Below are positions 29,304-33,197 of a stretch of 64,000 bases of DNA, piece after piece (position 1 is the stretch's first letter; each line of letters starts with the position of its first letter). Made by a program: the position numbers and the translations under genes. Location of the stretch: contig NZ_CP080410.1 in NCBI RefSeq assembly GCF_019448255.1, positions 1,302,001 through 1,366,000 of the forward strand. The letters are read 5' to 3'. The stretch comes from Qipengyuania flava. Its GTDB lineage: Bacteria; Pseudomonadota; Alphaproteobacteria; Sphingomonadales; Sphingomonadaceae. The notes beneath the pieces are model-generated. The model worked only from the letters and a program-made list of their open reading frames with translations. It had not been told where the DNA came from and did no database searches.

Positions 29304-32045
29304 ATGCAAACGAGGACGGGAATCTCCTTGTCGATGACTGATTTTGCTTCTGCCGCCACGCGACGCAAGAACGCCCCTGCGCGTCTGGCGATCGGCCTGC
29401 TGGCCGGGACCATGCTTGCCGGGATGCCCGGCCTCGCTTTCGCCCAGGACGAGGAAGGCGCCGAACCGGCGGCTCCGGCTCCTGCCCCGGTGATCCAGCA
29501 GGAAATCGTGCAGACCATCGCGGTCAGCGGCGCGCAGCGCCTCGAGCCGCAGACGATCCTGTCCTACATCGAACTGCGCCCGGGCGACGCCTGGACCCAG
29601 GCCGCCGGCGACGAAGTCCTCAAGGACCTCTACGCGACCGAGCTGTTCTCGACCGCCAGCGTGATCAACAACAACGGCAATGTGGTCATCAACATTGTCG
29701 AGAATCCGGTCATCAACCGCATCATCCTTGAGGGCAACCGCCGCCTCAAGAACGACAAGATCCTGCCCGAGATCAAGCTGGCTCCGCGCCAGATCTTCAC
29801 GCGCTCCAAGGTGCGCGCGGACGTGGCCCGCATCATCGAGCTTTACAAGCGCCAGGGCCGCTTTGCTGCCACTGTCGAGCCGAAGATGGTCGAGCTGTCG
29901 CAGAACCGCGTCGATATCGTGTTCGAGATCAGCGAAGGGCCGAAGTCCAAGGTCCGCCAGATCAACATCATCGGCAACGAGGCCTTCTCGGATGGCGAGC
30001 TGCGCGGTGAGATGGTCACCAAGCAGGCCCGTATCACCAGCTTCCTCAGCTCGAACACCAGCTACGACCCCGATCGCCTCGCGTTCGACCAGCAGAAGCT
30101 GCGCCAGTTCTACCTGACCGAAGGCTATGCCGATTTCCGCGTGATTTCGGCTGTGGCCGAACTGACGCCGGACAAGCGCGACTTCATCATCACCTACGTG
30201 GTCGAGGAAGGCGAGCGCTACAAATTCGGCGAAGTTGCGGTGGATTCGCAGCTGCGCGATTTCGACGACGACGCCATGACCCAGCGCCTGCCGATGCAAG
30301 GCGGCGATTGGTACGACGCAAAGCTGGTTGAGGACACGGTCGAACAGCTGACCGAGCTGGCCGGTACCTTCGGCTACGCCTTTGCCGATGTCGCACCCCA
30401 GTTCTCGCGCAACCAGGACGACCTGACGATGGACGTCACCTTTGTCCTGCGCCAGGCGCCGCGCGTTTACGTCGAGCGGATCGACGTCAACGGCAACACG
30501 CTGACGCAGGACAAGGTCGTGCGCCGCGAGTTCCGTATTGCGGAAGGCGATGCCTTCAACTCGCTGTCGGTTGCCCGTTCGACCGCGCGCATCAACTCGC
30601 TCGGCTTCTTCCAGGAAAACTTCGAGGTGAACCAGGTCGAAGGCAGCGCGCCCGACCGGATCGTCCTCGAAGCAAACGTGGAAGAGCAGGCGACCGGCGA
30701 ACTCCAGCTTTCGGCCGGTTTCTCGAGCCTGGAAAGCTTCATCCTCGCCGGCTCGATCCGCCAGCGCAACTTCCGCGGCCGCGGCCAGACCATCGGCCTC
30801 AGCCTCAACTATTCGCGCTTCTCGCAGTCGGCGCAGGTGAGCTTCACCGAACCCTATGTGTTCGACCGGAACATCTCGGCCGGTGTCGATATCTACCGCC
30901 GCGATCTCAACAACTTCAACCCGCGCAGCGCGGACCGCGATACGACATTCGAACAGTCGACCACGGGTCTTTCGCTGCGCGCCGGTGTGCCGCTGACCGA
31001 ATACATCAGTGCGATCGCCAGCTATACGTTCAACTACGATGAAGTGTCGCTCGACGAGTCGATCTACTTCTCCGACCGCGACGGCGACGGCATCGCGACC
31101 TGCGACCCGCTGCTGGCAAGCCGCTTCCTGTGCGAAGCGATCGGCGAACGCACGAGCTCGATCCTCGGCCTCACCTTCAACTACAACACGCTCGACAGCC
31201 GCCTGCGCCCGACGCGCGGCGAAACCTTCAGCTGGACGACCGAATTCGCTGGCCTCGGCGGCAGCGTGAAGTACATCCGCTCGCGCCTGCGTGGCGGCAA
31301 GTACTGGCCGCTGGGCAGCGGCTTCATCTTCTCGGTTACGGGCGAAGCAGGCTGGATCAAGGGGCTCGAAAGCAACGTCCCTGCCGGTCAGGACGAAGTG
31401 CGCCTGACGGATCGCTTCTTCCTGGGCGAGCCGCAGATCCGCGGCTTCGACATTCGCGGCGTCGGCCCGCGCATCGTGCGCCTCAACTACTTCGACGACG
31501 ATGGCGATCCCAGCACGCCGCTGGTGTCGCAGACGGTCGAAGACGCGCTGGCGCAGGACGCCCGCGTCGATGACGCCATCGGTGGTCGCGCCTACTACCT
31601 CGGCCGCGCCGAGATCGAGATTCCGCTGGGCAGCGGTGCCCGCGAACTCGGCCTGCGCCCGTCGATCTTCCTCGATGTCGGTTCGCTGTTCAACGTGACG
31701 CCGCCGCTCCTGCAGGACTTTCCGAACGGCGTGCAGCGTAGCGATGCGGACGGCAACCTGCTGTTCGAACAGCTGGGCACGGATGCCGATGGCAATCCGA
31801 TCCTTGAACTCGTGCCCAACGCGACTGCGCCTGATGGCACGCCCAACAACCCGAGCATTTTCCCCGGCACCTTCTTCCGTGAAGTGTTTGTCGGTGACAG
31901 CCCGTCGCCCCGCGTTTCGGTGGGTGTCGGCGTGAATTGGAACTCGCCCTTCGGTCCGTTCCGGATCGACCTCTCGCATGTGCTGAAAAGCCAGCTGGGC
32001 GACCAGACCAAACTCTTCTCCTTCAACGTAGGAACGTCTTTCTAA
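29304..32045 (+). CDS. bamA: Outer membrane protein assembly factor BamA
   Basis: 913 residues (or 903 if ATG 29334 is used; neither start has a clear ribosome-binding site). A signal peptide ending near GLAFAQ is followed by five POTRA domains (about residues 65-450) and the Omp85 beta-barrel. The barrel contains the loop-6 motif VRGF-like as IRGFDIRGVGPR, and ends in a C-terminal Phe. It folds and inserts outer-membrane proteins. Unusual acidic, glycine-rich insertions occur in extracellular loops (SDRDGDGIATCDP near 31072-31110 and two DADGN segments near 31745-31800). Confidence 0.96.
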   Translation: MQTRTGISLSMTDFASAATRRKNAPARLAIGLLAGTMLAGMPGLAFAQDEEGAEPAAPAPAPVIQQEIVQTIAVSGAQRLEPQTILSYIELRPGDAWTQAAGDEVLKDLYATELFSTASVINNNGNVVINIVENPVINRIILEGNRRLKNDKILPEIKLAPRQIFTRSKVRADVARIIELYKRQGRFAATVEPKMVELSQNRVDIVFEISEGPKSKVRQINIIGNEAFSDGELRGEMVTKQARITSFLSSNTSYDPDRLAFDQQKLRQFYLTEGYADFRVISAVAELTPDKRDFIITYVVEEGERYKFGEVAVDSQLRDFDDDAMTQRLPMQGGDWYDAKLVEDTVEQLTELAGTFGYAFADVAPQFSRNQDDLTMDVTFVLRQAPRVYVERIDVNGNTLTQDKVVRREFRIAEGDAFNSLSVARSTARINSLGFFQENFEVNQVEGSAPDRIVLEANVEEQATGELQLSAGFSSLESFILAGSIRQRNFRGRGQTIGLSLNYSRFSQSAQVSFTEPYVFDRNISAGVDIYRRDLNNFNPRSADRDTTFEQSTTGLSLRAGVPLTEYISAIASYTFNYDEVSLDESIYFSDRDGDGIATCDPLLASRFLCEAIGERTSSILGLTFNYNTLDSRLRPTRGETFSWTTEFAGLGGSVKYIRSRLRGGKYWPLGSGFIFSVTGEAGWIKGLESNVPAGQDEVRLTDRFFLGEPQIRGFDIRGVGPRIVRLNYFDDDGDPSTPLVSQTVEDALAQDARVDDAIGGRAYYLGRAEIEIPLGSGARELGLRPSIFLDVGSLFNVTPPLLQDFPNGVQRSDADGNLLFEQLGTDADGNPILELVPNATAPDGTPNNPSIFPGTFFREVFVGDSPSPRVSVGVGVNWNSPFGPFRIDLSHVLKSQLGDQTKLFSFNVGTSF

Positions 32046-32722
32046 TGAACCTCTTTGCCAAGACCATCGCCGCGGCCGCACTTGCCGGCACGGCCGCCAT
32101 TGCAACGCCTGCCGCAGCCCAGGTTTCGGGCATCGCCACCAGCAGCCCGGAAGCCGTGATCGTGCGCAGCCAGGCGCGCATCAACGCCTACCAGCAGATC
32201 GACCAGCAGTACGCGACGCAGATCCAGCAGGCCGTCACCCTGCGCCAGGAAATGGCCACGCTGCAGCAAAGCCTCGATACCAACAACGACGGTCAGGTCA
32301 CGCAGGCCGAAGCCCAGGCCAATGCCGGTGTCGTGCAGCAGCTCCAGCAGAAGGAGCAGCAGCTCGCACAGATCTCGCAGCCGATCGTGCTCGCGCAGAC
32401 CTACGCCATCGAGCAGCTGATCAACGACTACAACAACGTCCAGCAGCAGGTCATCCAGCAGAAGGGCATCCAGCTCCTCCTGACGCCGGAAGCCATCCAG
32501 TGGGGTCCGGACACGCTGAACGTGACCAACGACCTGGTTGCGACGATGAACCAGCGTATGCCGAGCGTGCAGATCACCCCGCCGGCCGGCTGGCGCCCGC
32601 GCCAGGAATCGCTGCAGACCCAGCAGACCGTTTCGCAGGTCCTGCTCGGCGTTGCACAGCGCCAGGCTGCCGCCCAGCAGCAGCAACAGCAGCAACAGAC
32701 CCAGCAGCCGACCGGCCGCTAA
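32045..32722 (+). CDS. Skp/OmpH family periplasmic chaperone with EF-hand-like loop
   Basis: 225 residues from an ATG sharing one base with the bamA stop (TAATG). A signal peptide (to about residue 26, PAAAQ) leads to a long Gln-rich helical hairpin typical of Skp. At residues 78-89 lies [12 protein letters not shown], which has the ligand positions of a 12-residue calcium-binding EF-hand loop (D1, N3, D5, G6, T9, E12). The protein ends in a poly-Gln tail (about 213-220). Skp chaperones carry unfolded outer-membrane proteins to BamA, encoded just upstream. The EF-hand is unusual for the family. Confidence 0.88.
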
Positions 32723-32744
32723 TCGCACTATCGGGAGCAGGGGC

Positions 32745-33197
32745 ATGAGCGAGACCGGTTTCGACGTTGTCGAGGTGCTGAAGCGCCTTCCGCATCGCTA
32801 TCCCCTGCTGCTGGTTGACCGCGTGAAAGTGCTCGTCGTCGACGAGCGCATCCACGCGGTCAAAGCGGTCAGCTTCAACGAGGATTTCTTCCAGGGGCAT
32901 TTCCCCGGCGCGCCGATCATGCCCGGCGTGCTCCAGATCGAAGCGCTGGCTCAGGCCGCCGGCGTGCTCGCGGTGGAAAGCCTCGGTCTCGCAGGCTCGG
33001 GCAAGCTGGTCTATTTCATGGCGATCGAGAACGCGAAGTTCCGCGCTCCGGTCACACCCGGTGTGCTGCTCGATCTCGAAGCCGAGTTCGTCCAGAAGCG
33101 CGCCCGCGTGTGCAAGTTTGCCGGCAAGGCCAGCGTCGACGGCAAGGTGACCTGCGAGGTGCAGTTCACCGCCATGATCGCCGACGCCCCCGAATAA
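32745..33197 (+). CDS. fabZ: 3-hydroxyacyl-ACP dehydratase FabZ
   Basis: 150 residues from ATG 32745 (GGGAGCAGGGG upstream). Hotdog fold with [13 protein letters not shown], the catalytic [20 protein letters not shown] (His and Glu) and [14 protein letters not shown]. It dehydrates 3-hydroxyacyl-ACP in fatty-acid elongation. In LPS producers lpxD precedes and lpxA follows this gene; here skp precedes and rpmE follows. Confidence 0.96.

Follow-up and report, generated by a model that had tools for sequence, protein, structure and literature searches.

A Skp/OmpH-type chaperone with a predicted calcium loop at its arm tip, and two Skp types that appear to replace each other in place among the Sphingomonadaceae

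The chaperone Skp is well known, works without ATP and has arms that do not fold until the trimer is formed. PMC7577714 describes the E. coli protein as having flexible arms and a disordered monomer, with the barrel of the trimer acting as a "staple" for the arm ends. Calcium or an EF-hand in Skp was not found among the literature matches listed, which were titles and the starts of abstracts with subscription journals mostly uncovered. Another known process that bears on our results is xenologous gene displacement in situ, in which a distant homologue takes the place of one operon gene and the genes on either side are kept. Here we describe a skp gene of Qipengyuania flava whose product carries an EF-hand-type loop. 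It lies in a stretch of 64,000 nucleotides of contig NZ_CP080410.1, analysed as a whole and called the window below, and its features and flanks are as follows:

29304-32045, + strand: bamA, the upstream flank and an input to the reference tree (Pfam Omp85 and POTRA)
32045-32722, + strand: skp/ompH gene of the EF-loop type, 225 amino acids plus stop (Pfam OmpH match)
32045-32119, + strand: signal peptide, residues 1-25, by inspection, with presumed cleavage between AAA and Q
32213-32284, + strand: first arm helix, residues 57-80, equivalent to an E-helix and running into the loop (AlphaFold model)
32276-32311, + strand: EF-hand-type loop, residues 78-89 (sequence and conservation)
32303-32461, + strand: second arm helix, residues 87-139, opening at loop position 10 (AlphaFold model)
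32603-32707, + strand: predicted C-terminal helix and Q-rich linker, residues 187-221 (low model confidence)
32708-32719, + strand: C-terminal PTGR (homologue comparison)
32745-33197, + strand: fabZ, the downstream flank and an input to the reference tree (Pfam FabA-like)

The stop codon of bamA shares one base with the ATG of skp at 32045-32047 (TAATG), and lpxD is absent between skp and fabZ (window 32722-32745). Two other open reading frames called on the + strand of the window we take, from their sequences, to be dxr and rseP. The Pfam OmpH profile (PF03938) matched the window protein just above its cut-off (34.8 bits against 32.4), and it also matched, at E-values of up to 10, 26 of 26 members of an alignment of diverse relatives, which comprised the window protein and 25 others that are 30-81% identical to it. 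No NCBIfam model matched over its cut-offs. The Skp profile of 26 relatives in turn matched 4kqt, an OmpH-like protein of Caulobacter, at E=3.5e-9. At the presumed cleavage site, A25 and Q26 were present in 47 of 47 loop-form representatives. GR forms the end of the protein in 93 of 104 Skp homologues of both forms, mostly as PTGR or PSGR, and this ending, which follows a variable Q/A/P-rich linker, is possibly a conserved C-terminal tail motif.

These 104 Skp loci came from 14 relatives, one MAG (L015), 29 loci of a family search and 60 chosen stretches. The family search matched 350 of 397 genomes, and the 60 stretches were picked from the resulting list, which favoured the better matches. 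The loop was present in 73 of the 104 homologues; the 31 loopless ones are 29 family members, L014 from another family, and L015. The 73 loop and 29 loopless family loci make up the 102 that we used for the flank and Skp trees, and a second set of 45 loci was hand-picked for genera holding both forms. Conservation was ranked over 225 positions in the 47 representatives of the loop form, all less than 70% identical to one another. An even draw of 199 family genomes yielded 187 with a match to the Skp profile, with 46 scoring at least 232 bits and the remainder no more than 162 bits. Sequence confirmed the EF loop in all 46 of the high-scoring genomes (one of them with E at position 9), so that the loop form was found in 46 of the 199.

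By translation, the loop at 32276-32311 is exactly residues 78-89 of Skp/OmpH, as a preliminary description of this DNA had placed it. That description had also recognized an EF-hand ligand pattern in a Skp-like chaperone, and the pattern proved to be kept in the 73 loop-form relatives and to exceed what shuffling produces. Among 20,000 shuffled versions of the mature protein, 8 had a PROSITE-like 12-residue EF pattern, and in a further 20,000 a stricter pattern occurred once. As judged from sequence, the loop is more than chance, and its conservation is stronger evidence of this than the shuffles. The pattern D-x-[DN]-x-[DN]-x-x-h-[DSTN]-x-x-E holds in 73/73 loop forms, save for N at position 1 and T at position 8, once each. 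Position 12 is E in every one of the 73, and position 1 is D in all but the one with N. Position 3 is N in 66 and D in 7, position 5 is D in 68 and N in 5, and the two residues trade with each other (ND 65, DN 4, DD 3, NN 1), such that D3 accompanies N5 in four of the five N5 cases. Position 6 is looser (G 50, N 11, R 5, K 4, Q 3), position 8 is L, V, I or F in 72 of 73, and position 9 is T, S, D or N throughout, with D in 15; a later locus, L138, has E there. The residue just ahead of the loop (L77 in the window) is L, F or I in 72 of 73. Position 13 is Ala in the window protein, at a place where PROSITE expects a hydrophobic residue. Codon usage at E12 (GAA 41, GAG 32) shows synonymous variation, and D1 is encoded by GAC in 45, GAT in 27 and AAC in one, and D5 by GAC in 50, GAT in 18, AAC in three and AAT in two.

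The alignment of homologues that the preliminary description had proposed as a check bears the pattern out, as the ligand positions do not vary freely among close relatives. E89 is one of six invariant columns in the 47 representatives, where D78 ranks 8th, D82 13th and N80 15th among the 225 positions; V85 (71st), G83 (76th) and T86 (116th) are middling, and the free position 81 ranks 137th. Among the 26 diverse members, D78 and E89 belong to the eight invariant columns. Profile searches connect the loop with EF-hands in part: Pfam EF-hand models matched up to 10 of the 26 members (E up to 10), the best being EF-hand_7 in one member at 1.3e-5, and the window Skp itself had no Pfam EF-hand match. 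The Skp profile matched EF-hand proteins in the PDB, best 2jnx at E 2.5e-5, where the best single stretch is weak (i-Evalue 0.72). Each of the 73 chains has one loop and no paired hand, and because the hand is unpaired, its affinity may be low.

As the 73 loop forms were picked by pattern, we checked for circularity by leaving the tip columns out of a Skp tree of the 102 loci. One branch (SH-aLRT only 82) parts the 73 loop from the 29 loopless proteins, with L072, L074 and L075 as long-branched loop rows that adjoin the loopless side. Since the tip-less tree yields the same 73, their conservation is not a product of selection by pattern. In the set of 45, the split between the forms has support of 100/99 with one exception, L117. 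L074 and L117 (G175, genus code g99) have an EF loop on a body that is nearest to loopless Skp, and may be described as either mosaic or intermediate.

Both forms are found at one locus, bamA-skp-fabZ, in the 102 family loci, although the stretches of L027 and L092 showed no fabZ. The 199-genome draw contained ten genus codes with both forms (g11, g17, g23, g46, g53, g75, g87, g97, g99 and g104), each with at least one member per form confirmed by sequence. A tree of the bamA and fabZ ends of the 102 loci, from a quick search, required 19 changes of form, at least 6 of them forced by well-supported branches. The corresponding tree of the chosen 45 required 13, at least 11 of them forced, and 0 of 200 bootstrap trees gave a single change. 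The Skp tree needs 1-2. Restriction of the loop to one species clade is ruled out by both flank trees. The preliminary description had called the variant lineage-specific; it is restricted to a lineage, but it does not follow the species lineage, and belongs instead to one of the two principal Skp types, between which close relatives differ at this locus. On the flank tree of the chosen 45, form was no more clustered than shuffled labels (119 of 500 shuffles as low), and on that of the 102 loci it was somewhat clustered (1 of 500 as low).

Comparisons of individual loci point in the same direction as the trees. Nineteen cross-form pairs from the same genus had flanks that were 0.66-0.87 identical and Skp proteins that were 0.27-0.53 identical outside the tip. 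For example, the loopless L113 and the loop-bearing L038 of g11 share 87% of flank residues and 36% of Skp outside the tip, whereas L038 and L041, both with the loop, share 86% and 82%. Along the DNA, L113 and L038 are about 0.8 identical ahead of skp, about 0.45 within it and again about 0.8 in fabZ. Four discordant pairs have this drop at skp and recovery at fabZ, and three same-type pairs, L038/L041 among them, have no comparable sustained drop at skp; in some pairs identity also dips inside bamA. Divergence of Skp is also found within the loop form. L002 and L007, from the window's own genus and both with the loop, are 87% identical in their flanks and 40% in Skp. In the comparison across the 102 loci, two loop-bearing subtypes replace each other between close relatives among L002, L007, L043, L071, L032 and L064, where flanks are 0.85-0.86 and Skp 0.35-0.40 identical. 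Flank identity reaches 80% or more in 82 pairs of these loci, of which two are cross-form and 80 same-form, and Skp is less than 50% identical in 18 of these 80, a count of non-independent pairs in which a few loci recur.

The shared locus, the mixed genera, the discordant trees and the drop in identity together suggest that the whole skp gene has seemingly been replaced in situ, and repeatedly. On the sequences compared, this would most simply have happened by homologous recombination in the conserved flanks. A search for donors among the 102 loci gave no near-identical skp genes with distant flanks (the largest excess of Skp over flank identity was 0.12), so the swaps are either not very recent or came from donors that were not sampled.

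Whole-gene replacement through conserved neighbours is the simplest account, and its rival is differential loss: two once-adjacent paralogues, one or the other of which was lost, would give the same distribution with no recombinational transfer. The gene order is the same in both forms, and if tandem genes recombined with each other, the deletion could remove all but a single copy. Duplicates of OmpH do exist. More than one match was obtained in 13 of the 199 family genomes, and on re-searching all 13, we found that eight encode a further OmpH-like protein that is divergent, lacks the loop and lies away from bamA (G077 has two), while in the other five the extra match was an exported multi-EF-hand protein. 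However, no tandem skp pair is present among the 102 family loci, and the loopless profile found one match in each of 22 genomes, save for two on separate contigs in G326, a genome with 6% contamination; G177 and G265, with two matches in the family search, had one with this profile. Neither profile found a second Skp copy in the window's genome. The further OmpH-like proteins score low (26-46 and 36-52 bits on the two profiles) and the stretches examined around them matched neither bamA nor fabZ. Most of these divergent proteins (L202-L206, L208-L210 and L215) contain the motif GGPVxxGxCLLSREAIF, from which L202 and L215 differ. Paralogy also has to accommodate the further swap between loop subtypes in the window's own genus (L002/L007), and we consider it unlikely as the explanation of the pattern.

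For the position of the loop in the protein, we made an AlphaFold model of the window Skp as a monomer, from a two-sequence alignment of the window protein and L015. The model has a helix at 57-80, the loop, and a helix at 87-139, with mean pLDDT 64 and pTM 0.54. In this low-confidence model the loop would be the turn at the arm tip, with a helix on either side and, as in an EF-hand, a tenth residue that opens the second of them. In the monomer model of the loopless L015 (mean pLDDT 62), helices 74-107 and 111-151 are joined by a turn of three residues. Foldseek gave no match in the PDB at E <0.001, the best being a SkpA chain at E 0.035. Structural re-ranking placed 4kqt at the top (Z 10.3, rmsd 7.2, 144 aligned), followed by 1u2m and 1sg2 (Z 8.8, rmsd 6.5 and 6.0, 135 aligned) and then by an unrelated helical protein (8.2). 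Skp entries lead, but as these proteins are helical, the Z ranking lends mild support.

Our preferred reading, to which we give a probability of about 0.78, is that the window encodes a derived EF-hand type of Skp, in which a single, unpaired predicted Ca2+ loop braces the arm tip, and that this type has been swapped in situ with the loopless one. In each coiled-coil arm, the turn at the tip would have become a lone EF-hand calcium loop. As in EF-hands generally, periplasmic Ca2+ would be bound through D78, N80, D82, the backbone carbonyl of residue 84, T86 via water, and E89. The ligand roles also draw on PMC3123361. There would be one site per arm, and three per trimer if the protein trimerises like E. 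coli Skp. Bound calcium would fix the two arm helices at the tip, and the site may thus be a second "staple" opposite the barrel of the trimer. The stiffness of the arms, and hence the holding and release of clients, would then depend on calcium; where calcium outside the cell is high, the site may simply be a permanent brace.

The tip could instead be a structural helix-capping turn, an Asp/Asn/Gly-rich hairpin that binds no metal. D, N, T and G cap helices well, Skp arms need a turn, and the loopless relatives have their own at this place. A capping turn nevertheless leaves unexplained the Glu kept at position 12 in 73/73, the exchange of D and N between positions 3 and 5, the T/S/D/N at position 9, and the hydrophobic residue at position 8 (L/V/I/F in 72/73, with T in one), and it seems to us improbable. 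We regard it as very unlikely that a loop of this kind binds another ion in vivo, such as Mg2+, Mn2+ or a lanthanide. More than one metal can occupy loops of the EF type, the Skp profile touches lanmodulin (E=0.88), and position 9 is D in 15/73, but Glu at 12 in all 73 is generally understood to favour Ca2+ over Mg2+, and Pro at position 2, which is typical of lanmodulin, is present in 0/73. We hold it to be highly improbable that the incongruence is an artefact of fast Skp evolution, with convergent composition clustering the loop forms. In favour of an artefact, Skp is divergent and of low complexity and two rows have odd composition, but at equal flank identity (0.75-0.80) Skp outside the tip is 0.66 identical in same-form pairs (16) versus 0.32 in cross-form pairs (8), and DNA identity steps down at the edges of the gene.

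To return to the EF-hand type of Skp, its origin can be considered from outgroups. A survey of the class matched 122 of 289 genomes, and the eight best from outside the family were read (L153-L160). No loop was found in the Skp of 24 outgroup loci, namely these eight and 16 order outgroups (L161-L176), or in that of four low-scoring family loci (L177-L180). Because all outgroups read are loopless, we treat the loop as a derived state and its lack as the ancestral one. Five family genomes encode exported proteins (L207, L211, L212, L213 and L214) that have three to five loops of the EF type, and one of these proteins, L214, ends in QPGR, as many Skp proteins do. Hands of exported EF-hand proteins are very like the Skp loop: DTNNDGSITQAE (G093), DTNGDGAISQAE and DTNKDGKISQAE. 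From this resemblance in sequence, an exported EF-hand protein could have been the template for the Skp tip, or the tip could be convergent.

We also considered other features that might accompany the loop. The preliminary description had tied the poly-Gln tail to it, and this link failed, as loopless forms have such a tail too. The poly-Gln of the window protein is a run of 8 within one variable Q/A/P-rich linker among many; the longest Q run is 8 in both forms, and the Q fraction of the last 45 residues has a mean of 0.32 in 73 loop forms versus 0.18 in 31 loopless ones. We therefore rejected poly-Gln as part of the feature, given that the linker varies and loopless forms share it. Sphingomonas is cited as lacking LPS in PMC2635482. 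We found no LpxD match in 9/9 genomes with loop or loopless Skp, including the window's own and two members of other families of the order; in the control, four of 14 known genomes were matched, including E. coli and Caulobacter. The loop was thus rejected as a marker of LPS-less lineages, since LpxD is unmatched with either form and LPS loss alone does not explain the loop. In the window BamA, a DxDGDG motif stands beside a cysteine (FSDRDGDGIATCD) in a predicted surface loop whose placement is tentative. Such BamA loops were dismissed as a linked calcium feature: they are common, though not universal, in 45 relatives and independent of the Skp form.

Taken together, the original observation of the loop is confirmed and is stronger than had been stated, while its earlier reading was right about the loop and incomplete with regard to evolution. 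If the preferred reading is true, a metal site at the free end of the arm would offer another means of controlling a chaperone of this kind, and a natural calcium-loop Skp would be a ready tool for asking whether arm stiffness sets client holding. For a housekeeping protein of the periplasm, one would not expect types to be swapped in place among close relatives, and a question that follows is what selects for this. It is tempting to consider, as a tentative idea that we hold to be somewhat less probable than even, that the skp locus of this family is an exchange site at which two or more types are swapped whole, one of them with putatively calcium-braced arms that resemble the exported hands, so that related species might differ in the calcium response of OMP delivery.

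The window protein resembles the known members of the Skp/OmpH family (PF03938; 1u2m, 1sg2 and 4kqt) in its signal peptide, its place after bamA, its match to the OmpH profile and, in the low-confidence model, a long two-helix arm. Unlike them, it has an EF-hand-type loop as the predicted turn of the arm tip and a C-terminal extension of a predicted helix and a Q-rich linker, and its gene lies in a genome with no LpxD match. With EF-hand proteins it shares the predicted helix-loop-helix arrangement, the ligand pattern at 1, 3, 5, 9 and 12, and the hydrophobic residues at position 8 and just before the loop, and the profile of its relatives finds such proteins in the PDB, but it differs in having a single predicted hand with no partner in the chain, on the tip of a chaperone arm. 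Single-handed EF-hands in bacteria are raised by a title cited in PMC3123361, and the lone hand therefore limits the comparison rather than the site. The Dx[DN]xDG loops outside EF-hand proteins, as treated in PMC3123361, are a further parallel, in that the motif lies in an unrelated bacterial exported protein. The words "Skp", "OmpH" and "coiled" are absent from the main text of that paper. Unlike the loops described there, the Skp loop is flanked by helices on both sides and has Glu at position 12, which brings it closer to a full EF-hand. Finally, the skp case differs from plain xenologous displacement in that the replacement is recurrent and takes place between a few standing types within genera.
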